43,581 nt of DNA, taken from the NCBI GenBank assembly GCA_028280515.1, contig JANQLP010000244.1:1-43581 (forward strand). Direction: 5' to 3'. The stretch is from Hyphomicrobiales bacterium. Its GTDB lineage: Bacteria; Pseudomonadota; Alphaproteobacteria; Rhizobiales; Methyloligellaceae. The notes under the pieces were generated by a model that worked only from the letters and a program-made list of their open reading frames with translations, had not been told where the DNA came from and ran no database searches. Below, piece after piece: positions 7,526 through 43,574 of this stretch (the stretch's first letter is position 1; each line of letters starts with the position of its first letter). The translations under genes were made by a program, and so were the position numbers.

Positions 7526-7543
7526 GGTCCGGGACCTGGTTCA

Positions 7544-9837: not shown

Positions 9838-9893
9838 AGTTGGCGGTATGCGGCGCCGGCTTTCCGGGCATGATCGACCGGCCTACGAGCTGA

Positions 9894-10838
9894 CTATTTC
9901 CGGAGCAGCTTCGGCGAGATGCCGAATGCGCGCTTGAAGGCTGTCGCGAAGTTCGCGGGATTCTTGTAGCCTGCGAGATAGGCGGCCTCGCCCACGGAGA
10001 GGCCTTCGGTCTCGATCGCGAAGCGTGCGCGTTCGAGCCTGCGGGTCCGCACATACTCGACAACCGTCATCCCGTAAACGGACTTGAACAGCCGTTGCAG
10101 TGTGGTGGCTCCAATTCCCACCTCCCGCGCAATCGCGGACAGGGTCAAGGGGTCGCCCAATCGCTGCTCGATATAGTCCCGGACGGTCTGGGCGCGGCAT
10201 ATATCAATCGTCGCCGCGCTATTGAGTGCCGGGCAGCGCCGTTCTCCGTTCAAAGCCTGCAGGGCCTCCGCGGCGAGCTCCACGGCACGGCTTTCCAGAT
10301 AGAGCTCGCGGACGATCGGCGGAAGCTGCGGTGGATTCAGCATCTGCTCGGCGAGGGCGATGGCGCGGCCGGAAGGATGCCAGCTTGTTTGGGCAAGGTG
10401 TTTGCGCAGGAAGCAGCCGACGTCATGTTCACAGGTCTTTTCTCGCAGTCCACCATCGTCGAGCCATTCCGGCCGGATCGTGATGTTGACCTTGCGGGTA
10501 CGCGCTCCGCGCCGCGAGTGCCTTGCCAGCCTGACCGGTTTGGCAATGGCCACGGCGAACGCGGCCGGTTGGGTGTGACCATTGTCCCGGATTGCGGAAA
10601 ACCTGAAGGGCACATCATCAAGATGGAAATCAATTCCGCCCTCCAGAATGACAAATACCTTCAGGCAAGGCTCAACGGCCATCTCCATGGTGAGGTCCTG
10701 GATCTCGGCGGTTTCTGCTGTGTGGATCGTGAGGCCGGAGCGCAGTCGCGAAACGTTGACCCGTCCTTCGATGATGACATCCTCGGGCCCAAACGTGGGT
10801 TCAAGCGCGCAGAAATCGGAACCGGCGGATTGCGCCAT
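9894..10838 (-). CDS. AraC-family transcriptional regulator of siderophore module 2
   Basis: 314 residues from the ATG at 10838, chosen because GGGAG lies eight bases upstream. The frame continues to a GTG at 10931, but those residues look non-conserved. The C-terminal domain has the two AraC helix-turn-helix motifs (LSAIAREVGIGATTLQRLFK; VGEAAYLAGYKNPANFATAF), of PchR/YbtA-like style. The N-terminal half is a cupin-like sensing region (VFVILEGGIDFHLDDVPFRF). It is divergent from the TonB receptor operon at 11134 and convergent with module 1, so it most likely activates module 2 in response to the ferric siderophore. Confidence 0.9.
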   Translation of the reverse strand: MAQSAGSDFCALEPTFGPEDVIIEGRVNVSRLRSGLTIHTAETAEIQDLTMEMAVEPCLKVFVILEGGIDFHLDDVPFRFSAIRDNGHTQPAAFAVAIAKPVRLARHSRRGARTRKVNITIRPEWLDDGGLREKTCEHDVGCFLRKHLAQTSWHPSGRAIALAEQMLNPPQLPPIVRELYLESRAVELAAEALQALNGERRCPALNSAATIDICRAQTVRDYIEQRLGDPLTLSAIAREVGIGATTLQRLFKSVYGMTVVEYVRTRRLERARFAIETEGLSVGEAAYLAGYKNPANFATAFKRAFGISPKLLRK

Positions 10839-11086
10839 GGTTGTGAGCTCCCGTTGTCTTAATCCGGTGCTCAATGGCTTGATCGGTGGTTTTGGTTTTC
10901 CCTGATGCGTCATTGGTTGTCGGCAGATCACTATTCAGATCACCACAGGCCGTCAGTCTACTGATCATTCATTCAGGACCCGCGAAGCCTCAATCTCGTG
11001 AGCACGGCAGTGCTTCTCGCAAACGTCTTTGGCGATCCTGCAAAGGCCTTGTCGATGGCGTCGTTCCACCCATATCGCATAAATTG

Positions 11087-11101
11087 TGATTGTTAAAGTC
11101 A
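11087..11101. promoter_or_regulatory. Putative RirA iron-responsive operator upstream of TonB receptor 2
   Basis: TGATTGTTAAAGTCA fits TGA-N9-TCA and shares TGATT and AAAGTCATGT with the site at 5314, although its left half-site is less extended. It lies 32 bp before the chosen start codon, between the divergent AraC gene and the receptor operon. The rest of the ~300-bp region (10839-11133) holds no gene. Confidence 0.55.
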
Positions 11102-11133
11102 TGTTTTGTCGAGAGTTGGGCCGGGGGGCGGAA

Positions 11134-13389
11134 ATGTCGACAACAATCAGAACAACAACGAAACCCGTGTGTCTGCGTTCCAGAGCTCGTCTAGGTGGAA
11201 CCGGAATCACGATCGCCGCGTGCCTTGTCCTGACCTCGTTCGGTGTACACGCACAACAGAGCGAACTGCCGACGGTCGTCGTGACCGGTCAGGGTGAGCA
11301 GCAAGATGAGCAACTGCCGCAGGAGGCAGGTGACGATGCGGGCACCACGCCGGATATCGTCGGCGGGACGGACCGCTCAGCACAGACGGAAGGGGTGGAC
11401 AGCTACACGACGAGCGAGACGACGGTTGGCTCGAAGGGCCCGGCGGCGATCCGTGACATCCCGCGCACAGTGAATTTGATCACGCGTCAACAGCTCGACG
11501 ATCAGAATCTGGACAGCATTGAACGCGCGCTGGAATGGGACCCGGGCATTGTCGTTGCAACGGGCAATCTGTTCCTCTCCAGCTTCTACGCCCGCGGGCA
11601 CGAGATTTTCAGCTACTCGATCGACGGGATGACGCGGCCCTTGCAGAGCATCTATGGAACCACGCCGGACTTGTCCTTCTTCGACCGTGTCGAGGTGCTG
11701 TCCGGACCGGGGACCTTGTTCAACGGGTCAGGGGAGCCGGGGGCCACCCTGAATCTTGCCCGAAAGCGCGCCGGGCCGGTGGCGCACGCCGAGGCGTCAT
11801 TCACCGGAGGGATGTGGGACTACTACCGTGGTGAATTCGACATCAATACGCCGCTCAATGACTCGGGCACCGTACGGGCGCGCGTGGTCGGATTCGGGTT
11901 GGATGAGGGCTCCTTTGTCGACCATGCCAATCAGCAACGTATCGGCGCATACGGAACGCTCGAATTCGACATAACGCCGGCGACCACACTCTCGCTTGGC
12001 ATGTTCGGCGAGGAGCAGGATATCTCCTCCACGAGCGGGCTGCCGACATTCCTCGACGGAATGCTGGTGGACGTCAGTCGCTCGTCTTATGTGGGCGCGG
12101 ACTGGAACGCCAATGACTCCAGGTCGAAGGAGCACTTCGTTGAGCTCGACCACATTTTTCAGAACGACGCGCGCTTTCATGCGGCCTACCGGCGCAACGA
12201 CCGGGATACCGACATCCTGACGGCGCTGGGGCAGACCGGCGTCGACCCGGCAACCGGTGACTTCAACATGTTCACGTTCGCGCGCAACTATGAGGAAACC
12301 AATGACGCGTTGGACGCATATCTGGCAGTCCCTTTCCAGATGTTCGGAACCGAGAACGAGATCGTTGCCGGCGCCGATTACCGCAAATCCGATCAGTTCT
12401 TCGAGCAGAATTTCGCGTTTTTCGCTCAGCCGACCAACAATATCTTCAATCTCAGAAAGAACTTCCCCGAACCGGTTGTGACGTTTCCCGGTGTCGGGCC
12501 GGGTTTCAGGCTCAACCAGTCGACGGAGTTCAACGAGACCGGACTGTACGGTCAGCTGCGGCTCAACCCGGTTGAGCCCGTTACGGTCCTGCTCGGCGGT
12601 CGTTCGACATATTTCGAGAATACGATCATCGACGAAGGCCGCGCGCGCGTTAGCAAGATTGATGAGGACGACACGACCGGAAACGCCGGTGTTCTGATCG
12701 ACGTCACTCCAAACGCCACCTTGTACGGGAGCTACGCCCAGATCTTCCAGCCGCAGACGGAGGCGGACGCAAACGGCAATCCAATCGGCGCGCGGTCGGG
12801 ATACCAATATGAGTTCGGCGTGAAGAAGTCCCTTTTGGATGACCGGCTCAACTTTCAGGCGGCGTGGTTCAACCTCGAAGACACAAACCGTGCCGTGAGC
12901 AATGGTGTCGGCACCTTTGCGGCGACCGGCGACGTCCGCACCCGCGGCGTGGATGTGCGCATCGGCGGTAACCCCCGACCCGGACTCAAGATGACCGCAG
13001 GCTACGTGTATACGGACACGGAAAACCTGTCCGGCGATCCGCTTGCGGAGTTCGGAGAGGTCGCACCGCGCCATTCGGCATCCGTGTTCATGAAGTACAC
13101 GTTCCAGGACGGTCCGTTGCGGGGGCTCGGTCTGGGGGGTGGCGTGCGGGGCGTCAGCGAGTTCTTTGCGCTCGATATCGATGGCACGACCATCACGCGT
13201 ATCAAAGCGCCCGGATACGTCGTCGCCGACGCGCAAGTGAGCTACGCCATCTCCGAAAAGGTGCAGGCTCAACTCGACGTGACCAACATCTTCGACAAGA
13301 AATACTATCAGCGTGTGAACGAGGTCATCCGCGGTAACTTCTATGGCGAGCCGACGCGTGTGATATTCAGGATAACCGCAAGACGGTAA
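11134..13389 (+). CDS. TonB-dependent siderophore receptor, module 2
   Basis: 751 residues from the ATG at 11134, which has a purine-rich site (GGGGGCGGAA) just upstream. The frame extends to 11086 but that part covers the putative operator. The signal peptide has its core at about 24-38 and is likely cut after GVHA, followed by a TonB box-like LPTVVVTG. The plug domain carries SLTLLR-type features of siderophore receptors: RDIPRTVNLITRQQLDDQ, the FYARGHEI segment, and VEVLSGPGTLFNGSGEPGA. The beta-barrel ends in FRITARR, without the usual terminal Phe but with F as the sixth residue from the end. This layout is that of the FpvA/FhuE/FoxA-like siderophore receptors. Its stop overlaps the start of the binding-protein gene (TAATG). 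Confidence 0.94.
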   Translation: MSTTIRTTTKPVCLRSRARLGGTGITIAACLVLTSFGVHAQQSELPTVVVTGQGEQQDEQLPQEAGDDAGTTPDIVGGTDRSAQTEGVDSYTTSETTVGSKGPAAIRDIPRTVNLITRQQLDDQNLDSIERALEWDPGIVVATGNLFLSSFYARGHEIFSYSIDGMTRPLQSIYGTTPDLSFFDRVEVLSGPGTLFNGSGEPGATLNLARKRAGPVAHAEASFTGGMWDYYRGEFDINTPLNDSGTVRARVVGFGLDEGSFVDHANQQRIGAYGTLEFDITPATTLSLGMFGEEQDISSTSGLPTFLDGMLVDVSRSSYVGADWNANDSRSKEHFVELDHIFQNDARFHAAYRRNDRDTDILTALGQTGVDPATGDFNMFTFARNYEETNDALDAYLAVPFQMFGTENEIVAGADYRKSDQFFEQNFAFFAQPTNNIFNLRKNFPEPVVTFPGVGPGFRLNQSTEFNETGLYGQLRLNPVEPVTVLLGGRSTYFENTIIDEGRARVSKIDEDDTTGNAGVLIDVTPNATLYGSYAQIFQPQTEADANGNPIGARSGYQYEFGVKKSLLDDRLNFQAAWFNLEDTNRAVSNGVGTFAATGDVRTRGVDVRIGGNPRPGLKMTAGYVYTDTENLSGDPLAEFGEVAPRHSASVFMKYTFQDGPLRGLGLGGGVRGVSEFFALDIDGTTITRIKAPGYVVADAQVSYAISEKVQAQLDVTNIFDKKYYQRVNEVIRGNFYGEPTRVIFRITARR

Positions 13390-14531
13390 TGCGTATGCGA
13401 AGCTTCTTCCTTTGCCAGCTTGTTCTTGCCGTGCTCGCCGGGATCCTTGGCCCGGCGAGCATCGCATTTGCGGACCCCATAACCGTAACCGATCTGATCG
13501 GCAGATCGGTTACGCTCAAGGCTCCCGCGCAGAAGGTGATCCTGGGGGAGGGCCGCTACATCGCTGCGCTCGGGATACTGGACCGGGACGATCCGACGAA
13601 ACGCCTTGTCGGCTCACTTGGCGAGTTCAAGCGTTTCGACCCCGCCGGATACGAACAGTACCTGAGGGCGTTCCCGAAACTGTCGGACGTGCCGTTGTTC
13701 GGCACAACATCGGCCGACACGGTGAGCGTCGAGAAGGTGATTGCACTGAAACCGGACCTGGCGATCTTCGGAAAGAGTGGCCACGGTCCATCGGCGCGCA
13801 CAAAGGGACTGGTCGAGAAAATCGAGGCCGCGGGAATTCCTGTTGTGTTCATAGATTTTCGGGACGAACCGCTCGTCAATACCCCGAAAAGCATGTTGCT
13901 GCTCGGCAGGCTTCTGGGCCTGGAGAAGGAGGCCGAGGCCTTTGTCCGGTTTTATGAAAGCGAGTTGGCCAAGGTCGAAGAGAGACTGAGCCAAAGCAAA
14001 CCGGCGCGACCGAGCGTGTTCATCGAGGTGCATGTTGGCCGCAACATTCCGTGTTGCTTCACCATGGCTGACGACCTGATGGGCCGGTTCATCGATGTTG
14101 CCGGCGGCAGGAATATCGCCAAGGGTTTGGTTCCGGGGGCCTCGGGAACTCTCAACCTCGAACACCTGATCGCCACCCAGCCCGACATCTATATCGGGAC
14201 CGCCATCGGCTCGCCTTCGGCCATAAAGAGTGCGCCGAAGTTCATTGTGCTTGGTGCAGGCGTCTCCGAAGACATGGCGCGGGCGTCACTGAAGCGGGGA
14301 CTGGACCGGAAGGGCATCGCCAACTTGAAGGCGGTAACGTCGGGCAACGCGCATGCGGTCTGGCATCATTTCTACAATTCCCCCTTGAATGTCGTGGCCG
14401 TCCAGGCGTTTGCGAAGTGGTTTCACCCCGAGCTTTTTGCCGATCTCGATCCGGACGCGACGCTAAAGACGCTTTTTGACCGGTTCCAGGCCGTCCCGCT
14501 TGAAGGCGTTTACTGGACAAGCTTGAAGTGA
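13389..14531 (+). CDS. Iron-siderophore ABC transporter, periplasmic binding protein
   Basis: 380 residues with a signal peptide (MRMRSFFLCQLVLAVLAGIL..., cut near AFA-DP). The mature part is a helical-backbone type III binding protein (PF01497-like): ITVTDLIGRSVTLKAPAQKVIL at the start, EKVIALKPDLAIFGKSG in lobe 1, and DIAGG-like FIDVAGGRNIAKG in lobe 2. It binds a ferric siderophore in the periplasm and docks on the FecCD permease encoded next. It overlaps the receptor gene by one base, so the receptor and transporter are one transcript. Confidence 0.92.
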   Translation: MRMRSFFLCQLVLAVLAGILGPASIAFADPITVTDLIGRSVTLKAPAQKVILGEGRYIAALGILDRDDPTKRLVGSLGEFKRFDPAGYEQYLRAFPKLSDVPLFGTTSADTVSVEKVIALKPDLAIFGKSGHGPSARTKGLVEKIEAAGIPVVFIDFRDEPLVNTPKSMLLLGRLLGLEKEAEAFVRFYESELAKVEERLSQSKPARPSVFIEVHVGRNIPCCFTMADDLMGRFIDVAGGRNIAKGLVPGASGTLNLEHLIATQPDIYIGTAIGSPSAIKSAPKFIVLGAGVSEDMARASLKRGLDRKGIANLKAVTSGNAHAVWHHFYNSPLNVVAVQAFAKWFHPELFADLDPDATLKTLFDRFQAVPLEGVYWTSLK

Positions 14532-14582
14532 CGGGGTCGCCATGAACGCTCGACGTCGACAGGTTTTGAGGGAGTGCCGGCC

Positions 14583-15626
14583 ATGAGCGAGGCGTCGCTT
14601 GGACAGTCTTACCGGCAAATCTACCGCCGCCGTTTGGCGGTGCTGTCGGTCCTGGTTCTGGCGCTGGGGCTTTCGTTCCTGGTTGATGTTGCGACGGGCC
14701 CTTCGATCTTCCCTCTTGGCGAGCTTCTGCGCGGGCTTGTCGATCCCTCATCTCTCGATCAGGCCAAATCCGTAATCCTCTGGGACGTGCGGCTGCCTTA
14801 CGCGATCATGGCCGTCCTTGTCGGCGCGGCGCTCGGCCTTGCGGGCGCGGAAATGCAAACGGTCCTGAACAACCCGCTCGCAAGCCCATTCACGCTGGGC
14901 ATATCTGAGGCGGCAGCATTCGGTGCCTCGCTTGCGATCGTGTTTGGAGTGCTTTTTCCGGTTGCCATCCAGACCTACACGGTTCCGCTTTTTGCCTTTC
15001 TCACGGCATTCGCGGCCTGCATGATCATTCTGGCGCTTTCCCGGACCTTCGGTGCAGGCGCGCACGCGGTCATCCTGTTCGGGATTGCCCTGGTGTTTGT
15101 TTTCAAGGCGCTGATTTCCCTGGTTCAGTTCGTCGCCGAAGCGGACGCCTTGCAGCAGATTGTCTTTTGGACGATGGGGTCGCTGGGTCGTGCGACCTGG
15201 GAACAGCTTGCGATTGTCACCTGCGTCCTGATCGTGTGTTTTCCATTCTCGATGCGCGCCGTCTGGATGATGACCGCGATGCGTTCCGGCGAAGCACAGG
15301 CTGCGAGCCTCGGGATACCGGTCGAGCGCTTGCGCCTCGTGGTCCTCTTTCGGGTGAGCGTCCTGGCCGGCGTGGCCGTTGCCTTTGCCGGATCGATCGG
15401 CTTCATCGGACTTGTCGGCCCCCATATCGCCCGTCTTGCACTCGGAGAAGACCATCGGCTGTATCTCCCCGGAAGCGCTCTGGCAGGCGCGCTCATTCTC
15501 TCGCTCGCCTCGATCGCCAGCAAGGCCCTGATCCCCGGAGTCGTTATTCCGATCGGGATCGTGACGGCGCTGGTCGGTGTCCCACTGTTCATGACGCTGA
15601 TTGTCAGACAGAGGCACAGGCTGTGA
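14583..15626 (+). CDS. Iron-siderophore ABC transporter, FecCD-family permease
   Basis: 347 residues from ATG 14583, with GAGGGAG nine bases upstream. A GTG at 14574 would leave no room for a ribosome site. About ten transmembrane helices, with the family signatures GAALGLAGAEMQTVLNNPLA (about 75-95) and GFIGLVGPHIARLALG (about 273-288), the latter being the ATPase-coupling region. There is only one permease gene, so the transporter is presumably a homodimer, like BtuC, and unlike the FepD/FepG pair. The stop overlaps the GTG start of the ATPase gene. Confidence 0.93.
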   Translation: MSEASLGQSYRQIYRRRLAVLSVLVLALGLSFLVDVATGPSIFPLGELLRGLVDPSSLDQAKSVILWDVRLPYAIMAVLVGAALGLAGAEMQTVLNNPLASPFTLGISEAAAFGASLAIVFGVLFPVAIQTYTVPLFAFLTAFAACMIILALSRTFGAGAHAVILFGIALVFVFKALISLVQFVAEADALQQIVFWTMGSLGRATWEQLAIVTCVLIVCFPFSMRAVWMMTAMRSGEAQAASLGIPVERLRLVVLFRVSVLAGVAVAFAGSIGFIGLVGPHIARLALGEDHRLYLPGSALAGALILSLASIASKALIPGVVIPIGIVTALVGVPLFMTLIVRQRHRL

Positions 15627-16414
15627 GCGAGGGCCTGCGCATCCGTGACGTGTCGGCCGGGTACGGGCCCCGCCGGGTCCTGCACGACATCACGCTTCCA
15701 CAACTGCAACCCGGCACGATCACGGCTGTTGTCGGGCCGAATGCCGCAGGCAAGTCCACCTTCATGAAGGTGCTCGCCGGACTTCTTCCGAGCGGCGGCG
15801 AGATCGTGCTCAATGGCGAAGCCTATCTGCAGCGATCGCCATCGGCTCGCGCCAAGCTGGTCGGTTATCTGCCGCAGAGCATCCCTGCGGGAAGTGGCTT
15901 GCTCGCCTATGAAAGCGTCCTCGGCGCCTATCGGATGACAAGTGGCAGCCAGGACGCGGAGCCGGTCGAGCGCGTCTTTCGGATGCTCGACCTGGAGAAC
16001 GTTGCGCTGCGCCCGGTCAGCGAACTCTCAGGCGGCAAACGCCAGCTCGTCGGCCTGGCCCAGGTTCTTGTGCGGGAGCCCCGGCTGCTTCTGCTGGATG
16101 AGCCCACGAGCGCGCTTGATCTGAGATGGCAGATCGAGGTGCTGCGCATTGTCAGGGAGGCCGTCGAGCAGCGGGATGCGGTGGCGCTGGTGTGCGTGCA
16201 CGATATCAATCTTGCCATGCGCTTTTGCGACATGGTCGCCGTGTTGTCGGAGGGCCGGTTGCTCGCCGCCGGTCCGCCCTCGCAGGCCATCACCTCGGAA
16301 ACCCTCAAGACCGGCTGGCAGGTCGAGGCGCGCATCGAAAACTGTTCGCTCGGGTACCCCGTGGTCCTCGCAGATGAACCGGTACGGGGCGAGACGGTGG
16401 TTCCAATGCCGTGA
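15623..16414 (+). CDS. Iron-siderophore ABC transporter, ATP-binding protein
   Basis: 263 residues starting at GTG 15623, overlapping the permease stop by four bases (GTGA). The longer frame to the left is the shadow of the permease. It has Walker A GPNAAGKST (38-46), Q-loop QSIPAG near 85, signature LSGGKRQ (135-141), Walker B LLLLDEP (155-161) and the switch histidine in VCVHDINLA. This is a FepC/FhuC-type ATPase that drives the FecCD permease. Confidence 0.94.
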   Translation: MSEGLRIRDVSAGYGPRRVLHDITLPQLQPGTITAVVGPNAAGKSTFMKVLAGLLPSGGEIVLNGEAYLQRSPSARAKLVGYLPQSIPAGSGLLAYESVLGAYRMTSGSQDAEPVERVFRMLDLENVALRPVSELSGGKRQLVGLAQVLVREPRLLLLDEPTSALDLRWQIEVLRIVREAVEQRDAVALVCVHDINLAMRFCDMVAVLSEGRLLAAGPPSQAITSETLKTGWQVEARIENCSLGYPVVLADEPVRGETVVPMP

Positions 16415-23719: not shown

Positions 23720-25702
23720 ATGAAATTTAGAGTTGTGTTAAGTGTGATTTTTTCAACGACCTTGTTTCAGGGGCAGGAGGTTCTCGCACAGGACGCCGTG
23801 ATTTCCCTCGACTCTGTCGTCGTGAGCGCCAACAAGCGCGAGCAGGGTTTGAGCAAGGTTGACGGAAGCGTCTCGGTGAAAACGGGCGAGGACCTGCAAC
23901 GCGCCAACGTCACGAAGGTGAGTGAGTTGGGAAAGGTCTTTTCCGGTCTTGTGATCCGAACCCGCGGCAGCCGGGTGTATGCGAATTTCACCGTTCGAGG
24001 CCAATACTCCCCTGACTTTTACAATGCGACCGTCCAAATCTATTTAGATGGCGTGCCCCAGGATACGTCGGTTTTCGATCAGGAACTGATCAACGTCGAT
24101 CGGGTGGAGTTTCTGCGCGGACCTCAGGGCACTCTCTACGGCCGCAATGCATTCGGCGGCGTCATCAACATCATCACCCGTCGCCCGCGCACGGATGAGC
24201 TGTCAGTCGCCGGCGAGCTTTCAGATCACGGTCGCCGTGCGGATATCGTCGGAACGGCGGCTTTGAGCCCGGACAGCTGGTTTCTCGATTTCGCCGGTCG
24301 TGCCGAATACGACGAAGGCCACATCAAGGATGCAACGACAAACAACAGCGACATTGCCGATACGCGATCCGCGTTTGGAAGCGCGATGCTGCGTTTCGAT
24401 CCGCAGGATGGTCCTTTCGACGCGACATTGGCCGCGTCATACGATCACGTGCGAACACACGAGGAACTCTACCTTCTCGACCAATTCGTCAGTCAGCGAA
24501 AGTACTTCACGGCATTCCAGCCGGTGAATTTTCTGGATCGTGAATTCTGGACGACTTCACTGAACTGGAACTACCAGTGGGATGGCTTCACGCTTTCGAG
24601 CACGTCGGCCTATCAGGATGTCAGCTATGACAGGAACATCTTTGGTGGAATGTTTCCTGAAACGAAGCAGGTCGCGTCCGAAGAGCTGAAACTTGCTTAT
24701 GACGGCGCCGGACGCCTCTCTGGCGTCGCGGGCCTGTACCTGCAGGACGATGAATTCACCCGCGAGGTCGTCGGGTTTTCCTTCAACAAGGTGGAAGGGC
24801 AGTCGATAGCCGTTTTCGGAGATGTCACGTTTCAGGTGACACCGCGTCTCGATGTTACGGGAGGCATTCGCTATGGCGAGGATGATGCGTCCATCAATTT
24901 CAATGCGCCAGGCTTCTTCGCATTCCGCAATTCGGAGAGTTTCGACGACGTTCAGACCAAGGCTGCGGTGGGGTTCCAGATCACTGAAAACACACGCGTC
25001 TACGCCTTGGTTTCGGAAGGGTACAAACCGGGCGGGTTCAACCGAGCTGTCGCATCACCAGCCGATTTCGCGCCTTATCTGCCGGAAACCTCGGTCAACT
25101 ATGAGGTGGGTATTCGCAAGACGATGCTCAACCAGGCATTGTACCTGGCGGCCGCTGCCTACTATATCCCGTCCGAGGACAAGCAGATCTTTGTCGGGCC
25201 GGTTGGTGTGCAGGTGATCCGTAATGCCGGCGAGGCGACGAGCAGGGGCGTAGAGCTCGAGGCAAATCTACAAGCGTCCTCAAACCTGACGATCACGGGT
25301 GCGACCTCAATAGACCGCTCGGAATTCGACAGTTATGTCGATCAGATCACCAGTGCCGACAACAGCGGAAACCGCGTTCCCTACGCACCCGAAGTGACTG
25401 CCAACCTGTCTGCGCGATACATCGTGCCGCAAACACGAATGCCGGCCGACATAAGTCTGTATGGGGCGTTGCAGTACACGAGCAAAATCTATTTCGATGA
25501 GGCCAATACGCTCAGCCAGTCGCCCGTGACGACCTTCGACGCATCCGTCGATCTGGCCTTCCATAATGGCGTCACCGTATCGGTGTTCGGCACAAACCTG
25601 ACCGATGAGACCTACCGGACGTCCAGCTTCAATTTCGGCGGCATCATCAGCACAATCGCCGACGGGCGTGTTGTCGGGGGCAAAGTCAAGGCGACGTTCT
25701 AG
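23720..25702 (+). CDS. TonB-dependent outer-membrane receptor, siderophore module 3
   Basis: 660 residues. The signal peptide is at 1-24 (likely cut at VLA-QD) and the TonB box-like stretch is LDSVVVSANKRE. The plug (about 40-160) has INVDRVEFLRGPQGTLYGRNAFGGVINIITRRP, whose key elements are VEFLRGPQGTLYGRNA and GGVINIIT. The barrel ends in GGKVKATF with a terminal Phe, as needed for outer-membrane insertion. Short for a siderophore receptor and without an N-terminal signalling domain. It is followed three bases later by an RhtX-like permease, so it imports a compound that enters the cytoplasm through that permease. Confidence 0.93.
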   Translation: MKFRVVLSVIFSTTLFQGQEVLAQDAVISLDSVVVSANKREQGLSKVDGSVSVKTGEDLQRANVTKVSELGKVFSGLVIRTRGSRVYANFTVRGQYSPDFYNATVQIYLDGVPQDTSVFDQELINVDRVEFLRGPQGTLYGRNAFGGVINIITRRPRTDELSVAGELSDHGRRADIVGTAALSPDSWFLDFAGRAEYDEGHIKDATTNNSDIADTRSAFGSAMLRFDPQDGPFDATLAASYDHVRTHEELYLLDQFVSQRKYFTAFQPVNFLDREFWTTSLNWNYQWDGFTLSSTSAYQDVSYDRNIFGGMFPETKQVASEELKLAYDGAGRLSGVAGLYLQDDEFTREVVGFSFNKVEGQSIAVFGDVTFQVTPRLDVTGGIRYGEDDASINFNAPGFFAFRNSESFDDVQTKAAVGFQITENTRVYALVSEGYKPGGFNRAVASPADFAPYLPETSVNYEVGIRKTMLNQALYLAAAAYYIPSEDKQIFVGPVGVQVIRNAGEATSRGVELEANLQASSNLTITGATSIDRSEFDSYVDQITSADNSGNRVPYAPEVTANLSARYIVPQTRMPADISLYGALQYTSKIYFDEANTLSQSPVTTFDASVDLAFHNGVTVSVFGTNLTDETYRTSSFNFGGIISTIADGRVVGGKVKATF

Positions 25703-25705
25703 GTC

Positions 25706-26986
25706 ATGGGTGTTGTTTTGCATGCCGCTTCGGACCCGGCGAATACCGGACGGTCCAAGGGCGAACGGATGCCGCTCGTCAACCTGCTGATGGTTTGCGG
25801 AGGGATTTATACGGCACAAGGCATAATCGGCGGGCTGACGTTTCAGGGACTTCCGGCCGCCCTCCGGGCAAACGACGTCGCGCTGGACAAAATCGGGCTC
25901 GTGTACCTTGCTATGCTGCCGTGGGCGCTGAAGTTCCTTTGGGCGCCATCGCTCGAGCGGGTGCGGATTCGAACCGACAATAGCCGTCGGTCGCGGCCGA
26001 TTGTGCTGTCTGGCCAGTTGGTTTGCATCGTGCTTCTGTTCGCTCTCGCCATGTCCGGCGTGGCGAATTTCTACCTGCTTTTGGGACTTGTGTTTTCACT
26101 GGCCCTCGTTGCGGCCACCGTCGACATTGCATGCGACGGCTTCATCATCGAGCAGCTCAGCCGGGAAAACCGCGGTTGGGGCAACACGGCCCAGATGGGC
26201 GGTGCCTATGCGGGGTTCGTGATCGGCGGTGGGCTGTTCCTGTGGGTTGTCGGTGCCCATGGTTGGACGGTCGGCCTGCTCAGCCTGGCAGTGTTCCTTT
26301 TGGTGCTCATGCTGCCGTTCGTGTTTCTTGCCGAGCCACAGCCAAACCCCATCGAGCACGCGCACCGTCCAAGCCTCCGGTTTGCTCTCGCGCGTCCCGA
26401 GGTGCGCGTCGGCATCTTTGCGCTCGTCCTGTTCGATGTCGGGATTCGTGTGACCAGCGGGCTTGGAAGTCCATTTCTCGTGGACAGCGGCATGAGCCTG
26501 AAGCTGATCGGTTTGCTCGCCGGATTCGGCGGTGCCGCGGCTGGCATCCTCGGAACTATAGCCGGGGGCCTCATTGTCCGTAAGGTTGGTGCGAGCCGGG
26601 CAACCGTGGTGGCGATCATGCTGCAAGTCTGTATCGTCGGCGCGTTCTTTCTGGTTTCGATCACGCAGACGACGAACATCAACGTGTTGGCAGCACTTAT
26701 CGTCAGCAAGTCGGTTGTGATGGGTATCGGCTTCGTCAGCATATACTCGCTGGCGATGGGCCTTGCATCGTCGCGGCAAGCGGGCGTCGATTTCACGCTG
26801 TTTCAATCTGTCGATGCCGCGGTCGCGGCGATTGGCGGTTTCGGCGCTGGAATGCTTGCCGAGAGCTTCGGCTATGCCGGTGCATTCGGATTTGCAGGTG
26901 TCGTGTCGGCAACGGCAGCAGTAGTAATCCCGGCGTTTCTGCTCAAGCGTTTGAACATGTCGCACGAAGTGGAGCGGGCATCGTGA
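25706..26986 (+). CDS. MFS transporter of the RhtX/FptX siderophore-permease type (second copy)
   Basis: 426 residues and about 12 transmembrane helices. The RhtX/FptX hallmarks are clear: IYTAQGIIGGLTFQGLPAAL, then IGLVYLAMLPWALKFLWAPSLER, and ATVDIACDGFIIEQL in helix 4. The start could also be ATG 25769, which has a better ribosome site (AAGGG, seven bases upstream). The first start is kept because it gives the same N-terminal length as the permease at 7544. The stop overlaps the GTG of the next gene. The sequence is only distantly similar to the permease at 7544, so the two were not produced by a recent duplication. Confidence 0.9.
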   Translation: MGVVLHAASDPANTGRSKGERMPLVNLLMVCGGIYTAQGIIGGLTFQGLPAALRANDVALDKIGLVYLAMLPWALKFLWAPSLERVRIRTDNSRRSRPIVLSGQLVCIVLLFALAMSGVANFYLLLGLVFSLALVAATVDIACDGFIIEQLSRENRGWGNTAQMGGAYAGFVIGGGLFLWVVGAHGWTVGLLSLAVFLLVLMLPFVFLAEPQPNPIEHAHRPSLRFALARPEVRVGIFALVLFDVGIRVTSGLGSPFLVDSGMSLKLIGLLAGFGGAAAGILGTIAGGLIVRKVGASRATVVAIMLQVCIVGAFFLVSITQTTNINVLAALIVSKSVVMGIGFVSIYSLAMGLASSRQAGVDFTLFQSVDAAVAAIGGFGAGMLAESFGYAGAFGFAGVVSATAAVVIPAFLLKRLNMSHEVERAS

Positions 26987-28128: not shown

Positions 28129-28400
28129 TGTCCGCTCATAAGCGGAAAGGGGACTCCCCGGGCGCCGTGCGGTGACGTCCGCTCGTCACCCAAGGCGGAC
28201 ATGACAAGCGATTTCAAACTTCGTCTCAACTGCCGCTAATGCATGCGCGCGCCCAGGGTTACCGCTCCCGGGGAAGCCCCTGGAAGCGCCGCCATCCGAA
28301 GTCCCCAACAACTCTTGTGTGATGTTATATAATTACGTATTAAGCAGGCCAATCGGTGGTGGAGGCATCGCATGAGCAGGCGGGCAGCAAAGATCCAGGT
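28129..28400 (+). repeat. Duplicated promoter segment, copy A (zinc operon)
   Basis: This ~270-bp segment is clearly similar to 42014-42260. Shared landmarks in the same order are TCCGCTCAT, TTTCAAAC-TCGTCTCAAC, TGATGCATG or TAATGCATG, TTCTTGTGT/TCTTGTGT, the ATGTTATA core, TTAAGCAGGC and GGAGGC-6-ATGAGC. Both copies carry a Zur-like palindrome and the start of a short leader ORF, and both lie upstream of zinc-related genes in the same direction. Confidence 0.75.
28319..28336. promoter_or_regulatory. Putative Zur operator of the zinc-limitation operon
   Basis: GTGATGTTATATAATTAC is an 18-bp imperfect palindrome with 12 of 18 positions symmetric. Its ATGTTATA core is like the known proteobacterial Zur boxes (ATGTTATAACAT-type). 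It stands upstream of a COG0523 GTPase and a DUF1826 gene, which are common Zur targets. The assignment rests on motif memory and context. Confidence 0.6.
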
Positions 28401-28515: not shown

Positions 28516-28893
28516 ATGAAAGTTGCCTATGTCTTCGCCACAAACATGGCCGCCACGTACAAACTCGCCACCATGATCTTGCCGCAGCTTGAGGACGGCG
28601 AACACGGCGCAGAAGTCGTGGGGATGTTCTTCTTTGACGACAACCTGTTCTGCTTGCGTGAGGGCGATCCTGTCGGCGAGCGCTTGGCGAAGGTCGCGAA
28701 GGAACAGAACATCCTGCTCATGATCTGCGACCAATGTGCTGTGCGCCGCAACTTGGCCGAAGGCACCCTCGAGCAATGCGGCAAGGGAGAGGTTACGGCG
28801 AAGGGCACGGTCTCTGGTGTTGAGGCCGGATGCTTCCCGCAGCTCTACGCTGCATTGGCGCCAGCCATGCCCGATCAAGTCATAACACTGTGA
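28516..28893 (+). CDS. SaoD/DsrE-family protein
   Basis: 125 residues with the DsrE-like fold: [20 protein letters not shown] at the N-terminus, [22 protein letters not shown] in the middle, and [18 protein letters not shown] near the end. A CxxC pair (C71, C74, in [11 protein letters not shown]) plus C46, C88 and C106 could carry sulfur or bind a metal. DsrE-type proteins relay persulfide sulfur; SaoD is a related, poorly characterised branch. Ribosome site GGAG lies eight bases upstream. First full gene behind the Zur-like box, 20 bp before the COG0523 GTPase, so it may help deliver sulfur or zinc under zinc shortage. Confidence 0.8.
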
Positions 28894-28913: not shown

Positions 28914-30131
28914 ATGTCTGCAATCGACCAACGTCTTCCCGTTACCGTACTTTCCGGCTTTCTTGGGGCCGGCAAGACGACGCTGCTTAACCGCGTACTG
29001 AACAACCGTGATGGCCGGCGGGTCGCCGTCATCGTCAACGACATGTCCGAGGTGAATATCGACGCCGATCTGGTGCGTGCGGACACCGAGCTCAGCCGCA
29101 CCGACGAGACACTGGTTGAGATGTCGAACGGCTGTATCTGCTGCACGCTGCGCGACGACCTGCTGGCCGAGGTCCGGCGCCTCGCGGGCGAGGGGCGGTT
29201 CGATTATTTGCTGATCGAGTCCACCGGAATTTCCGAACCGCTGCCCGTTGCCACGACTTTCGAATTCCGCGATGAAAAGGGCGAAAGCCTTTCGGATGTC
29301 GCCCGTCTCGACACGATGGTGACGGTCGTGGATGCGGTCAACCTGCTCAAGGACTATTCCAGCCACGACTTCCTGCACGACCGGGGCGAGACGCTGGGGG
29401 ATGAGGACGATCGGACACTCGTTCATCTGTTGACTGACCAGATCGAATTCGCGGACGTGGTGATCCTCAACAAGGTCGCCGACGCGGAGCCACATCAGGT
29501 GGACGCGGCGCGAAAGATCATCCGCAGCCTCAACGGCGATGCCCGGATCATCGAGACCAACCACTCCGACGCGCCGGCGGACGCGATCCTCGACACCGGG
29601 CTTTTCGATTTCGAGAAGGCGCACGAACATCCGATGTGGGCCAAGGAACTCTACGGCTTCGCCGATCACGTGCCGGAGACCGAAGAATACGGTGTTGCGA
29701 GTTTCGTCTACCGGGCACGTCGTCCGTTCGTGCCGGAGAAGGTGAAGGCTGTCCTGAACGGCGAGATGCCCGGCGTCATTCGCGCCAAAGGGCATTTCTG
29801 GCTCGCCACGCGGCCCGATTGGGTGGCCGAGTTCTCGCTGGCAGGCGCCTTGTCGAGCATCACGCCGCTCGGCACCTGGTGGGCCGCCGTTCCGAAGGAG
29901 CGTTGGCCGGACAATGACACTGCGCGTAGGTATATGGCCGATAACTGGCAGGAGCCCTGGGGTGACCGGAGGCAGGAGATTGTCTTTATCGGTGCCGACA
30001 TCGACTGGCCACGCTTGAAGGCGCGGCTCGACGCCTGCCTTCTGCCCGAGGATCTCGCATCAGACCCTGACTCGCTCCCTGATCTGCCTGACCCGTTTCC
30101 GATCTGGCGGCGCGCGGAGCAAGCGGCATGA
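28914..30131 (+). CDS. zigA: COG0523 (CobW/ZigA-type) GTP-binding zinc metallochaperone
   Basis: 405 residues from ATG 28914, with GAGGGA upstream. G1 motif GFLGAGKTT (15-23), the family's metal-binding CxCC (C74, C76, C77 in [12 protein letters not shown]), switch region [10 protein letters not shown] and G4 motif NKVA, then the CobW C-terminal domain ([12 protein letters not shown] ... [10 protein letters not shown]). Members in Zur operons (ZigA, ZagA, YeiR-like) are believed to deliver zinc to enzymes in zinc starvation. The symbol is given from family and context, since subfamilies of COG0523 cannot be separated by eye. Its stop overlaps the start of the DUF1826 gene (ATGA). Confidence 0.88.
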
Positions 30132-30763
30132 CCGTTGTGCGAGAAATCGCGAAAGACGCGGCCATCGAGGTTGACGTGGCGGACGCAGCGGAGGGATTGT
30201 CCGCGATCCATAATCCGGGTTGCGCCGCAGTGATCTGGAGGCGCCAAGTGTTGCCGGACTTTCAATCCTGGATCGATGCGCTGCCGCCTGAACAACTGCC
30301 GCAGGCGCGGGTGATCCTGCGCCCTGAGGACGTGCGAGACGCCGTGTTCCAGATCTGCAAGGCGACCGGCATCGCGAACTGCGCCGAACGGGAACAGCTC
30401 GTAGACGATACCGCGGTTCTGGCGGACATCTTTACCAGCCTGGTGCCCGCGCCATATCTCCGGCTGCGCTTTGACGTCGTCACGACAAACGCCTGCACAA
30501 AATTCCACATCGACGCCGTGACAGCACGTCTCATCTGCACCTATCGGGGGACGGGCACGCAATACGGCGTCGCGGCCGACGGGGCCGAACCTCGGCGGGT
30601 TTTCACCGTGCCCACCGGCGCCCCGATTCTGCTGCGCGGCACGCTTTGGCCCGAGCGTCCGAAATCCGGCCTGCTGCACCGCTCACCGCCCATCGAGGGA
30701 ACGGGCGAGACACGGCTTGTGCTTGTCCTTGATCCGGTACTGGAGCCCGACGAGGCGCAGTGA
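30128..30763 (+). CDS. DUF1826 domain protein of the zinc operon
   Basis: 211 residues. Conserved DUF1826 features: the [16 protein letters not shown] segment, [25 protein letters not shown] and the end [24 protein letters not shown] and C residues ([15 protein letters not shown]) may bind a metal or form a 2-oxoglutarate-oxygenase-like site. The function is unknown. The gene is coupled to the COG0523 GTPase, a pairing common in Zur regulons of alphaproteobacteria. The last ~90 bp are duplicated at 42265-42345. Confidence 0.88.
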
Positions 30764-39636: not shown

Positions 39637-41925
39637 GTGCGTTATACATCGAGTCACTGGGGCATCTACGAGGTCATCGAGAATGGTGATGGCACCTTTG
39701 CCCAACGGCCGATTTCGGATGATCCGGATCCATCTGACATTGGCCACGACCTCAATCAGGAATCCCTTCAAAAGCTGAGAGTCAAACAACCCGCGATACG
39801 CAAGAGCTGGCTGGAGAGCGGCCCGGGTGCGTGTCCTGAAAAGCGGGGACATGAACCGTTTGTCGAAGTGAGCTGGGGCCGGGCGCTTGAATTGGTTGCC
39901 GGCGACCTCAACCGGGTTCGCAGAGATCATGGTAACCAGTCGATTTTTGCGGGGTCATATGGCTGGGCCAGCGCGGGGAGGTTTCATCACGGCCAGAGCC
40001 AGGTCCACCGGTTCATGAACACGATCGGCGGTTATATCCGCCACGTGAACACCTACAGCCTTGGGGCTGCGCATCTGATCATGGGGTACATTGTTGCGCC
40101 CATGAAATCACTGATGGCTGACCACACGTCCTGGGATGTCATGAAGGAACACACCCGGATGTTTGTGACATTTGGCGGTGTACCGAGCAAAAACACGCAG
40201 GTATCTCCCGGGGGCGTTCGAAGGCACTTCACGCGTGGCGGCATGGCGGGATTGAGGGCGGCAGGCGTACGTATCGTCAACATTGGACCCGTTTGTGACA
40301 ATCTGGACGACGACGAAGCCGAGTGGATTCCGATACGTCCAAACACCGATACGGCCGTCATGCTGGGAATTGCATATGTATTGCTACAGGAAGATCTGCA
40401 CGATGCGGAATTTCTGCAGCGGTACTGTGTGGGATTTGACAGGTTTTCCCGTTACCTGACCGGGGAGGACGGAACCCCACCTTGTACGCCGGAATGGGCG
40501 GAAGGCATATCCGGCATGCCGGCGGAGCGCATTGTCCAACTGGCCCGGGACATGGCTGCGACGCGGACGATGATCAATATGGCCTGGTCGTTGCAGCGCG
40601 CCAGCCATGGCGAGCAACCGTGCTGGATGATTGTGACTTTGGCTGCCATGCTGGGGCAGATCGGATTGCCGGGTGGCGGGTTCGGCTTCGGATACGGAAC
40701 GACGAACGCGCTGGGAAGTCACTATGCGGCCGTACCTGGTCCGGTCTTTTCTCAGGGTCGAAATCCCGTTGAGGAATTCATCCCGGTCGCGCGTATTTCA
40801 GACATGCTTCTGAAGCCCGGTAAGGAATTCGAATACGAAGGTGGCCGACACACTTATCCGGATATCCGGCTCGTTTACTGGGTTGGCGGCAATCCCTATC
40901 ACCATCATCAGGACCTGAACCGGCTCGAACGTGCATGGCGCAAGCCGGAAACGATCGTGGTTCACGAACAATATTGGACCGCCACGGCACGGCGGGCGGA
41001 CATTGTGTTGCCCGCATCGACGGTGCTGGAACGCAACGACATCGGGTTTGCAAACCGGGAAGGTCATTTGGTGGCCATGCGCAAGGCCATGCCGCCAATC
41101 GCGGACGCGCGCAGCGATTTCGACATATTCTGCGGGTTGGCAGAGTGTATGGACGTCAAGGACTCCTTCGCGGAAGGTCTGGACGAACTGGGCTGGCTGC
41201 GCCGGATGTATGACGAGGCAGGCGAGAGGGCATTGAAGGGCGGCATTTCGTTGCCTTCGTTTGACGATTTCTGGGAAGAGGGCCTTATCGAAATCGATGA
41301 GGGCGCCGAGGCCGTCGTCATGCTGCAGTCGTTCCGCGCGAACCCCGATCTGTCACCCCTGCCAACCCCCTCTGGCCGTATCGAGATTTTCTCGGAGAAG
41401 ATTGAGAGTTTTGGTCTTGCCGATTGTAGAGGACACGCGATGTGGTTCGAGCCGCATGAGTGGCTTGGCGGTCTTAAATCAGGTGACGAGCGCCTGCATC
41501 TGCTTTCGGACCAGCCTGCCCGGCGCCTGCATAGTCAACTGGATGCGAGCGCCCACAGCATGGCGGGAAAGATACGTGGCCGGGAGCCCGTGTACATGAA
41601 TCCGCATGACGCCGAGGCGCGTAACATCCGTGATGGAGACATAGTCGAACTGTGGAACGAACGCGGCCGCTGTTTGGCGGGCGCCAAGTTGACGGACTCC
41701 ATCATGCCCGGCGTTGTCCGTCTCTCGACCGGGGCGTGGTACGACCCCGATGCGGACGGGCGCGACAAGCACGGCAACCCCAATGTGCTGACATTGGATG
41801 TCGGGACGTCGAGTTTTGCACAAGGGTCCGTGGCACAGTCCTGCCTCGTACATTTGAGCGGTCCGGTTGAGCATCCTGAGCCGGTTACGGCATTCGAATT
41901 GCCCGAGATCGTATCGGCAGACTGA
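39637..41925 (+). CDS. Molybdopterin-dependent S/N-oxide reductase, BisC/DMSO-reductase family
   Basis: 762 residues starting at GTG 39637 (AGGGA upstream), with no signal peptide and no N-terminal [4Fe-4S] motif, hence cytoplasmic like BisC. Domain order is that of the DMSO reductase family. The molybdenum ligand is S141 (NTYSLGAA). Y108 and W110 in SYGWASAGRFHH match the Tyr114 and Trp116 of Rhodobacter DMSO reductase; TorA lacks the Tyr. This argues for an S-oxide substrate such as biotin or methionine sulfoxide, or a sulfoxide made from the imported compound. It lies 92 bp after the dehydratase. The C-terminal pterin-binding domain is complete. Confidence 0.92.
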   Translation: MRYTSSHWGIYEVIENGDGTFAQRPISDDPDPSDIGHDLNQESLQKLRVKQPAIRKSWLESGPGACPEKRGHEPFVEVSWGRALELVAGDLNRVRRDHGNQSIFAGSYGWASAGRFHHGQSQVHRFMNTIGGYIRHVNTYSLGAAHLIMGYIVAPMKSLMADHTSWDVMKEHTRMFVTFGGVPSKNTQVSPGGVRRHFTRGGMAGLRAAGVRIVNIGPVCDNLDDDEAEWIPIRPNTDTAVMLGIAYVLLQEDLHDAEFLQRYCVGFDRFSRYLTGEDGTPPCTPEWAEGISGMPAERIVQLARDMAATRTMINMAWSLQRASHGEQPCWMIVTLAAMLGQIGLPGGGFGFGYGTTNALGSHYAAVPGPVFSQGRNPVEEFIPVARISDMLLKPGKEFEYEGGRHTYPDIRLVYWVGGNPYHHHQDLNRLERAWRKPETIVVHEQYWTATARRADIVLPASTVLERNDIGFANREGHLVAMRKAMPPIADARSDFDIFCGLAECMDVKDSFAEGLDELGWLRRMYDEAGERALKGGISLPSFDDFWEEGLIEIDEGAEAVVMLQSFRANPDLSPLPTPSGRIEIFSEKIESFGLADCRGHAMWFEPHEWLGGLKSGDERLHLLSDQPARRLHSQLDASAHSMAGKIRGREPVYMNPHDAEARNIRDGDIVELWNERGRCLAGAKLTDSIMPGVVRLSTGAWYDPDADGRDKHGNPNVLTLDVGTSSFAQGSVAQSCLVHLSGPVEHPEPVTAFELPEIVSAD

Positions 41926-42013: not shown

Positions 42014-42260
42014 TCCGCTCATGCGCGGGAAGGGGGCGTTCCGCCCAGGTCACTCGAACTTCCGTTTCTGACCCCGAGCTGATCTGGCAAGCGTTTTCAA
42101 ACCTCGTCTCAACCAGCGCTGATGCATGAGCCGGCCCGGATGCCGCACCTGAGGAGCACCGCAATCGAACATCGGCAACAAGTTCTTGTGTAATGTTATA
42201 AGATCACGTGTTAAGCAGGCGGGTCCGTGGCGGAGGCGTTACATGAGCAAGCGGGGCGCG
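42014..42260 (+). repeat. Duplicated promoter segment, copy B (class III ADH)
   Basis: Similar to 28129-28400 along its whole length, with scattered substitutions and small indels. Landmarks in order: TCCGCTCATG, GCGTTTTCAAACCTCGTCTC, TGATGCATGAG, TTCTTGTGTAATGTTATA, TTAAGCAGGC, and CGGAGGC before ATGAGC. The copies differ enough that the duplication is not very recent. Confidence 0.75.
42190..42207. promoter_or_regulatory. Putative Zur operator of the class III ADH gene
   Basis: GTAATGTTATAAGATCAC is symmetric at 14 of 18 positions and closer to the Zur consensus (GTAATGTTATAACATTAC-like) than copy A. It lies about 205 bp upstream of the ADH start, in the same relative place as in copy A. 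Confidence 0.6.
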
Positions 42261-42410: not shown

Positions 42411-43574
42411 ATGAAAACACGCGCAGCCATCGCATGGGAGCCAAACCGACCGCTGGAAATCGAAGAAATTGACCTTGAAGGCCCTAAAGAAGGTGAGGTT
42501 CTGGTCCGGATCGTGACGACCAGCCTCTGCCATACTGATGTGTTCACCCTGTCGGGCGAAGACCCCGAAGGTCTGTTTCCCTGTATTCTGGGACATGAGG
42601 GCTGTGGCGTGGTGGAGGAAGTTGGCAAAGGCGTTACATCGGTTGCGCCGGGAGACCATGTTATCCCGCTTTACGTCCCCGAAGATCCCGACTGCCCATA
42701 CATCAAATCGGGTAAGACCAATCTTTGCCAAACTATCCGTAAAACCCAGGGTGCAGGGTTGATGCCTGATGGAACCTCGCGTTTCTCGTACAAGGGCAAA
42801 CAGATCCTGCACTATATGGGTACCAGCACGTTCAGCGAATACACGGTTCTGCCCGAAATCTCGGTCGCCAAGATCGCCAAAGAAGCGCCCTTGGCCAAGG
42901 CATCAGTCATGGGCTGTGCCGTACCGACAGGCATTGGGGCTGTGCGCAACACCGCCAAGGTCGAGGCGGGCGCAACGGTCGCTGTCTTTGGTCTCGGAGC
43001 CGTCGGCATGGCTGTGATTCAGGGCGCTGTGATGAACGGCGCATCGCGGATCATCGGCATCGACATCAACACGGCAAAGTTTCCTCTGGCTACGGCGCTA
43101 GGCGCTACGGAATGCCTCAATCCGAAAGATCATGACGCACCGATACAGGACGTATTGGTCGAAATGACCGGGGGCGGCCTCGACTACACTTTCGAGGCCG
43201 TGGGCAATGTAGAGCTCATGCGCTCGGCGCTCGAGGCGTGCCATAAAGGCTGGGGAGAATGCACCGTAATTGGTGTTGCCGGTGCAGGGCAGGAAATCGC
43301 GACGCGGCCCTTCCAACTTGTCACCGGCCGGGTCTGGCGCGGTACCGCCTTTGGCGGTGTGTTGGGACGGAGCGAGCTGCCCGGCATGGTCGACGAGTGG
43401 TTGCGCGGCGACTTCAGCGTCGATCCCTATATCACGCATCACATGACGCATGGCCAGATCAACACCGCCTTCGACTTGCTTAAGGCCGGCAAGTCGATCC
43501 GGTCTGTCGTCCACTTCGAGCCGAGCAAGACCATGACGATCAACACCCTGCCGGGTGAAATTGTTCCGGAATGA
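42411..43574 (+). CDS. Class III alcohol dehydrogenase / S-(hydroxymethyl)glutathione dehydrogenase with altered structural zinc site
   Basis: 387 residues, a zinc-dependent MDR enzyme. Catalytic zinc ligands C40 (SLCHTD), H62-E63 (GHEG) and C169 (MGCAVPTG) are kept, as is the NAD motif [11 protein letters not shown] (193-203). Near-identity to class III signatures ([55 protein letters not shown]) identifies glutathione-dependent formaldehyde dehydrogenase. The structural zinc loop, normally C-x2-C-x2-C-x7-C, here reads [17 protein letters not shown]. Positions 1 and 3 are D92 and I98, and only C95 and C106 remain, so structural zinc is probably not bound. It lies behind a Zur-like box. TAGGAG precedes the ATG at 42411. 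The gene is complete. Confidence 0.93.

Follow-up and report, generated by a model that had tools for sequence, protein, structure and literature searches.

The alcohol dehydrogenase (ADH) encoded near the end of the analysed stretch of DNA (43,581 nucleotides, in the following the window) is probably a zinc-sparing isoenzyme of glutathione-dependent formaldehyde dehydrogenase/S-nitrosoglutathione reductase (GSNOR), which would be derepressed via Zur and would have dropped its structural but not its catalytic zinc. This reading, a zinc-sparing and Zur-linked isoenzyme, was put forward in the original prediction and is supported by the comparative evidence: the host possesses another copy with the complete four-cysteine (C4) site, and copies with the same Asp and Ile substitutions are found in a zinc-starvation context. 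Three features of a zinc-sparing paralog could be identified: a zinc-binding paralog in the same genome, loss of zinc ligands in the variant and a Zur-type box at the gene or operon.

Sequence and predicted structure of the variant ADH

The open reading frame of the ADH starts with ATG and ends with TGA (Table 1). Its product scored 630.9 bits against the NCBIfam equivalog model TIGR02818 for class III ADH, for which the cut-off is 543.95. When aligned to 4dl9, a solved class III ADH, D92, C95, I98 and C106 fall on the four structural cysteines and this part of the alignment is free of gaps. The structural-zinc loop consists of D-C-I-C instead of C-C-C-C, cysteines 1 and 3 being replaced by Asp92 and Ile98, and the catalytic zinc ligands C40, H62, E63 and C169 are all present. 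Class membership, residue numbers, the two replacements and the retained ligands had all been given in the original prediction, and all of them proved correct. The four structural cysteines that are usual for class III ADH were not found in the window ADH and, judged by its D-C-I-C loop, the variant is a derived subfamily and not an ordinary class III member.

Table 1. Positions of the features in the window
Feature	Position	Strand	Evidence
Class III alcohol dehydrogenase/S-(hydroxymethyl)glutathione dehydrogenase homologue without the full structural-zinc site	42411..43574	+	387 aa, TIGR02818
Structural lobe loop, residues 92-106 (D92, C95, I98, C106 at the four Cys positions)	42684..42728	+	Alignment
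Zur-type palindrome GTAATGTTATAAGATCAC, 221 bp before the ADH start codon	42190..42207	.	Consensus match, 23.0 bits
Second Zur-type palindrome, before the COG0523/DUF1826 zinc-starvation genes	28319..28336	.	Consensus match, 3 mismatches
Small ORF (125 aa) between box and zigA	28516..28893	+	ORF only
COG0523 GTPase, ZigA type	28914..30131	+	NF038288 598.6 bits, just below cut-off 600; PF02492, PF07683
DUF1826 protein, recurrent neighbour of the variant ADH	30128..30763	+	PF08856 190.9 bits

A structural model predicted from 46 sequences had a mean pLDDT of 88.3 and a TM score of 0.92 to human glutathione-dependent formaldehyde dehydrogenase, and its best structural matches were GSNOR/formaldehyde dehydrogenases. 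The pLDDT of the loop was 82 and 76 (residues 91-110), a value which says nothing on zinc occupancy. T42, D51, E53, Y88, R110 and K279, which we take to be the residues bearing on the class III reaction, are unchanged in all 30 unique variant sequences, and therefore the variant likely keeps this reaction. The window ADH also extends ∼18 residues past the usual C-terminal end. The possibility that the window copy is a pseudogene was ruled out by the open frame of 387 codons and by 84-95% identity to copies in other genera.

The variants form a single clade

The variant clade comprises 30 distinct sequences that are 78-100% identical to the window ADH, and no collected locus lies between 72.1 and 78.2% identity. 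The loop reads DCIC in 28 of them, DCIS in one and DYIC in one, so that D92 and I98 are found in 30/30. The other unique class III sequences that were compared have CCCC in 149/149 cases; these were gathered by similarity to the variant and are not a random class III sample. The catalytic ligands (CHEC) are kept in all 179 unique sequences (30 variant and 149 canonical).

A tree was calculated without the loop and tail columns from 30 of the 32 variants, 21 of the 28 paralogs, 22 of the 65 controls and the second ADH of locus L088. All 30 variants are separated from the other sequences by a single branch (SH-aLRT 100, 1 change), and therefore loss of the C4 site is most simply explained by a single event. 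In the midpoint-rooted tree, which has no outgroup, the clade is placed inside the class III rows (58-row set, SH-aLRT 100), beside six canonical rows (85), with a stem branch of 0.41. Loss of the C4 site and the zinc context described below each trace to this one clade and are one correlated event, not many.

Variants were found in Hyphomicrobiales, Rhodobacterales, Acetobacteraceae and one Erwinia, partly on plasmids, a distribution that points to horizontal transfer. Copies at least 83% identical were present in 3 genomes among 61 relatives, in 7 of 397 genomes of the order and in 2 of 385 of the class, with the own genome included in each number. In the plasmid collection, 9 of the 1678 matching records were 80-90% identical, and the genome contigs yielded at least 15 variant loci among the best 80 loci listed, which is a lower bound for recovery of the clade.

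Column identity averages 90% across 15 variant sequences from several families. Residues specific to the clade, determined by comparing 16 variants with 30 of the 65 controls (alignment A2), include D92, P93, P96, I98, S165, A170, P172, W330 and H347, and S165 corresponds to Cys in all 30 controls. Further clade-specific changes are located at positions 36, 38, 39, 44 and 65 and at seven places in 162-172. As the controls in this alignment were trimmed at residue 369, the C-terminal tail could have been a trimming artefact; this was ruled out by measuring all frames anew to the first stop. The frame has 387 codons in 29 of the 32 variant loci, 393 in one, 346 in L092 and 344 in L219 (these two were named as the short-framed copies by elimination), compared to 369-376 codons in 27 paralogs and 369-378 in the 65 controls.

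The two outliers of the loop have each lost a third structural cysteine. In Erwinia sp. S63 (L107) C106 is changed to Ser, and in genome G345 (L050/L219), where the copy is also shorter than the others, C95 is changed to Tyr. These losses suggest that no metal site formed by the remaining cysteines is required. It was considered whether the enzyme is Zur-induced with a lobe that binds zinc more weakly, via D92, C95, C106 and water, or that closes by a C95-C106 disulfide, so that affinity would be lowered and the site not deleted. Both C95 and C106 are retained in 28 of the 30 unique variants and, in the passages of PMC9895041, structural zinc is bound by archaeal enzymes in which one of the four positions is occupied by aspartate or glutamate, and the A. 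pernix enzyme forms a disulfide when zinc is absent. As Asp can bind structural zinc elsewhere, a D-C-x-C loop might still hold some zinc, and partial metal binding is possible. However, position 3 is Ile, no zinc ligand, in 30/30 variants and the DCIS and DYIC outliers lose one ligand more, which argues against a tight site and makes a weakened lobe site a rather unlikely explanation.

Variant-bearing genomes also contain normal class III copies

The host assembly (5,412,501 bases, 253 contigs) contains 15 ADH_N matches. The search for a second host class III ADH that has all four structural cysteines, which the original prediction had proposed, identified one of 369 aa on contig 21 with the loop CRQCEYCTSGKTNLC, ∼61% identical to the window protein. 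Within ∼6 kb of this copy none of the tested zinc neighbours and no Zur-like site were found.

A further class III ADH (E <= 1e-90) is present in 20 of the 23 distinct variant-bearing genomes, including the host. Of these 28 further copies, the 27 whole ones have the C4 site and one fragment at a contig end has Cys at the two positions that it covers. In G011, G282 and G553 (120, 550 and 900 contigs) no second class III ADH was found at E <= 1e-90, and the variant may be the only class III copy there. A binning artefact was also considered, as the host C4 copy is on another contig of the 253-contig assembly, but it was set aside since named isolates hold both copies (genomes of L096, L103 and L108).

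Zur-type boxes in the window and in the host genome

The palindrome upstream of the ADH has 2 mismatches to GTAATGTTATAACATTAC, which was used as the Zur consensus for the scan. At up to 3 mismatches two matches were found in the window, whereas 100 shuffled versions gave a mean of 0.00. Across the complete host assembly the consensus matched four places at up to 3 mismatches and two of them at up to 2; with the reversed control pattern there was no match. From the alignment and these controls, substitution and box are both considered real and above chance. The original prediction had described a Zur-like palindrome shared between the ADH and a zinc-limitation operon, and this is borne out by the boxes at 42190 and 28319. 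When scored with a site matrix, the box at 42190 reached 23.0 bits, whereas the best of 92 control promoters reached 9.4.

The four places in the host are located at the variant ADH, at the COG0523/DUF1826 genes (28319), on contig 127 and on contig 121. Only one other place in the 5.4 Mb equals the match of the ADH box, and it is flanked by a Fur-family gene and another copy of hisI. The boxes at 28319 and on contig 127 are in known kinds of zinc-starvation context. Downstream of the former, the small ORF is perhaps the first gene of the zigA operon. On contig 127 (positions 1-906, L013) the Fur-family gene is at the contig end and divergent from the second hisI, with the box in between; its N-terminus, cut by the contig end, scored 22.8 bits (cut-off 23.1). 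The two genes are likely zur and hisI2, members of one regulon. The host has seven further Fur-family matches, unsorted among Fur, Zur and PerR. HisI2 was considered as a second case of ligand loss, as the Zur-linked HisI has DDDQD at what is presumably the position of the expected zinc cysteine, but the candidate was rejected because DDDQD is also present in the other HisI of the host.

The palindrome on contig 121 (7786-7803; L014 4787-4804) has 3 mismatches and lies, by eye, between imelysin-like and porin-like genes, in a cluster that also contains a di-heme oxidoreductase-like gene.

Variant loci are associated with zinc-starvation genes

Genes for COG0523, DUF1826, HisI, ZnuA, Zur or AztC (tblastn, E <= 1e-12) were counted as zinc genes around 32 variant loci, 27 paralogs and 65 outside controls. 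Flanks were ∼5 kb for paralogs and ∼10 kb for the others, and a recount at 5 kb evens these lengths. Within 5 kb a zinc gene is present at 25/32 variant loci, compared to 0/27 paralogs and 0/65 controls, and these numbers are unchanged at ∼11.2 kb. The window locus is one of the seven without a zinc gene, because its zigA is 13.5 kb away on the same contig. Within 11.2 kb, a COG0523 gene occurs at 20/32 and DUF1826 at 17/32 variant loci. The loss of the C4 site thus goes with zinc-starvation genes in several orders, the association that the original prediction had suggested to look for among homologues.

Zur-like sites of at least 15 bits were found within 5 kb at 21/32 variant loci, 0/27 paralogs and 1/65 controls, and within ∼11.2 kb at 27/32, 0/27 and 3/65 (L144, L154, L172), counts which are partly circular as 18 sites from the same loci trained the matrix. 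With a matrix lacking any site from the 420 bp before an ADH start, 11/32 variant promoters exceeded the best of the 92 control promoters (9.4 bits). Many other variants have a same-strand frame upstream with a gap within ∼50 bp, as if the ADH were there in an operon with the box further up.

A zinc gene or a Zur-like site is present at 30/32 variant loci at both distances, in differing gene orders. Copies with the Asp and Ile substitutions outside zinc regulation had been named in the original prediction as evidence against it; candidates for such copies are L223 and L224 (2/32), with neither zinc neighbour nor Zur-like site, which speak weakly against it. The counts omit L222 (same place as L094) and L210 (fragment at a contig end) and include loci with shorter flanks (L225, L226 and L098 <6.5 kb; L100 1.2 kb upstream) and near copies (L088, L091 and L092; also L105 and L106).

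These data bear on neutral decay of the structural site combined with chance hitch-hiking beside zinc genes. A single origin, continued decay in two members and the existence of superfamily dehydrogenases without structural zinc (in the passages of PMC9895041) would fit such a scenario. It is nevertheless highly improbable, as D92 and I98 are invariant in 30/30, mean column identity is 90% over 15 sequences from several families and the zinc context recurs at 30/32 loci of differing gene order.

The frequency of COG0523 genes, which are commoner than DUF1826 at the variant loci, would also agree with an additional, Zur-induced copy that receives its catalytic metal from the ZigA chaperone encoded nearby or that works with another metal, the loop change being secondary. 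According to passages of PMC2770081, the zinc residues are retained in several Zur paralogs, HisI included, whose effect may be no more than a higher copy number. For the variant this is quite improbable: the ligands have been lost specifically, at two positions completely and, among the sequences compared, in the variant clade only, and the unchanged catalytic ligands give no sign of a metal switch.

FghA is the next enzyme of the formaldehyde pathway. Its gene is a neighbour of 15/27 paralogs and 48/65 controls, but of 0/32 variants, also at 11.2 kb. Together with the stem branch of 0.41, the clade-specific changes at 36, 38, 39, 44, 65 and in 162-172 and a GlxA-type regulator that is divergent within 200 bp at 13/32 loci, this would be compatible with neofunctionalisation towards another aldehyde or alcohol, in an enzyme that is induced in zinc starvation and whose changed lobe affects assembly or the access of substrate rather than the economy of zinc. 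FghA may, however, be shared with the normal copy; the TIGR02818 cut-off is still exceeded, T42, D51, E53, Y88, R110 and K279 are kept and the predicted model matches best to GSNOR/formaldehyde dehydrogenases. A new substrate is thus considered unlikely.

Proposed role in zinc starvation

For the zinc-sparing isoenzyme, the following working model is proposed. When zinc is plentiful, zinc-loaded Zur would bind the palindrome and repress the variant, and the reaction would be left to the normal copy with two zincs, which is encoded elsewhere. When zinc is depleted, Zur would leave and the variant would be made with ZigA, DUF1826, HisI2 and zinc importers. It would hold the catalytic zinc at C40, H62, E63 and C169 with a zinc-free structural lobe, which amounts to one zinc per subunit instead of two, and with its activity retained it could physiologically replace the normal copy. 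The lobe is probably held otherwise, by the invariant P93 and P96, D92 and other clade-specific residues; our guess is that the two new loop prolines and the C-terminal tail are candidates for stabilizing a metal-free lobe.

With class III ADH (FrmA, AdhC, ADH5, GSNOR; TIGR02818) the variant has the family, fold, catalytic ligands and substrate-site residues in common. It differs in the replacement of two of the four structural cysteines in all 30 sequences and of three in two of them, in its length (387 codons in 29/32, compared to 369-378) and in having a zinc-starvation context and no FghA neighbour. In known Zur paralogs, a zinc protein is often substituted by a version that has no zinc at the site concerned or that uses another metal. 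The variant is unlike them in that only the structural zinc would be given up and the catalytic zinc stays, so that a two-zinc enzyme is seemingly cut to one and structural and catalytic zinc demand are separated in one protein. We lean towards the view that this is a Zur-regulated enzyme which saves zinc through loss of the structural atom alone, throughout a clade whose members are encoded on plasmids or chromosomes in Rhodobacterales, Hyphomicrobiales, Acetobacteraceae and one Erwinia. Formaldehyde or nitrosothiol detoxification would then be added to the functions that bacteria protect in zinc starvation.

In the passages of PMC2770081 and PMC6103462, Zur-regulated paralogs (ribosomal proteins, DksA, HemB2, PyrC, FolE2, gamma-carbonic anhydrase) are, like the variant, second copies near COG0523 genes with a Zur-type box, and those of DksA, HemB2 and PyrC have likewise lost zinc ligands. 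The nine zinc-enzyme families with Zur-regulated paralogs that are given there for beta- and gamma-proteobacteria include no ADH (passages of PMC2770081). PMC6103462 mentions zinc-free ADH paralogues among Zur-regulated enzymes in a general statement and tabulates adhA and adhP, which, as far as its passages show, are not this class III enzyme. The corynebacterial adhA is also a Zur-linked ADH and is called zinc-dependent (passages of PMC6711530 and PMC2823685). In C. diphtheriae it is activated by zinc and Zur, opposite in direction to the repression proposed for the variant (passages of PMC6711530), and in C. glutamicum Zur did not bind its site (passages of PMC2823685). As prior Zur-linked cases adhA and adhP were therefore rejected, being different in direction or unconfirmed in these passages. 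In M. smegmatis ADHs are up or down, none of them called class III or zinc-free in the passages of PMC7174638, and the passages of PMC10563805 give no ADH. Among the matches listed, the open-access literature contained no report on a Zur-linked class III ADH or on its half-site loss. The original statement that there was none for this enzyme class stood to this extent, but has to be qualified by the general mention of zinc-free Zur-regulated ADH paralogues in the passages of PMC6103462. Zur-regulated zinc-sparing paralogs are known, and the class III ADH case is, as far as seen, new.

MDR enzymes without structural zinc, such as yeast xylitol dehydrogenase and others, also have a lobe without the four cysteines, with Asp among the replacements; unlike the context of the variant, regulation by zinc starvation is not mentioned for them in the passages of PMC9895041. 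Citing earlier work, the same passages report no expression or <4% activity when structural-site Cys was changed to Ala in human beta-beta and chi-chi ADH, or in a bacterial enzyme, and call it unclear why and how dehydrogenases without structural zinc arose (PMC9895041). If the proposed role is true, the variant would be nature's worked solution to a class III ADH that does without structural zinc, whose removal disabled the human enzyme in the laboratory, and would provide an adaptive cause for loss of structural zinc in a dehydrogenase. Since an apparently regulated loss and a normal sister copy are combined within one cell in this clade, the question of origin becomes testable.

Gene neighbourhoods of individual loci

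In Gluconobacter plasmids folE, hisI, zigA, the variant ADH and a carbonic anhydrase gene are arranged in a row with a Fur-type gene near, and folE-hisI-zigA-ADH-carbonic anhydrase gene sets occur in Gluconobacter, Komagataeibacter and Acetobacter. In G. albidus a C4 class III ADH is encoded on the same plasmid as the variant (L088 859-1968). In the third of these Gluconobacter plasmid records the ADH is unannotated and its frame short. The unannotated copy on the Gluconobacter oxydans plasmid (L092) is matched at residues 1-333 only, has an apparently short frame and may be broken.

Four Paracoccus records contain zigA or another COG0523 gene and DUF1826; azt-type transporter genes are present in two records, hisI likewise in two and cysS in a single one. 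In Sagittula, metal ABC transporter genes, a repressor, GTP-binding (COG0523-like) genes and DUF1826 are present. In Paracoccus sp. MA, GTAACGTAATAACATTAC is located 51 bp before the variant ADH, and the first 15 bases of this box equal the Zur motif given in the passages of PMC5387054 for pden1338, a COG0523 gene of P. denitrificans that is induced by zinc limitation. The main text of PMC5387054 has no word beginning with 'dehydrogenase' and therefore does not discuss the enzyme.

The loci with the divergent GlxA-type regulator are L084, L085, L086, L087, L089, L090, L100, L101, L102, L103, L107, L108 and L220. The copy of L089 has DJ-1/PfpI and AraC HTH domains, and the regulator is perhaps a second input, with aldehyde sensing as a possible function.

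At L225 (G553) an apparent C-terminal DUF1826 remnant was seen by eye between a Zur-like box at -448 and the ADH. The variant ADH of L223 follows apparent housekeeping genes, and at L224 an apparent Rrf2-type regulator gene is divergent to the ADH (both by eye); this copy, which has no zinc context, is perhaps regulated by another signal.

In the window, a BisC-family molybdopterin oxidoreductase is encoded just upstream of the ADH (39637-41925; TIGR00509 936 bits, below the cut-off of 1017.55). The regions 5345-16414 and 23720-26986 contain TonB-receptor-like, MFS-like and substrate-binding/permease/ATPase ORFs together with AraC-type regulators and, by eye, are likely iron-siderophore uptake systems.
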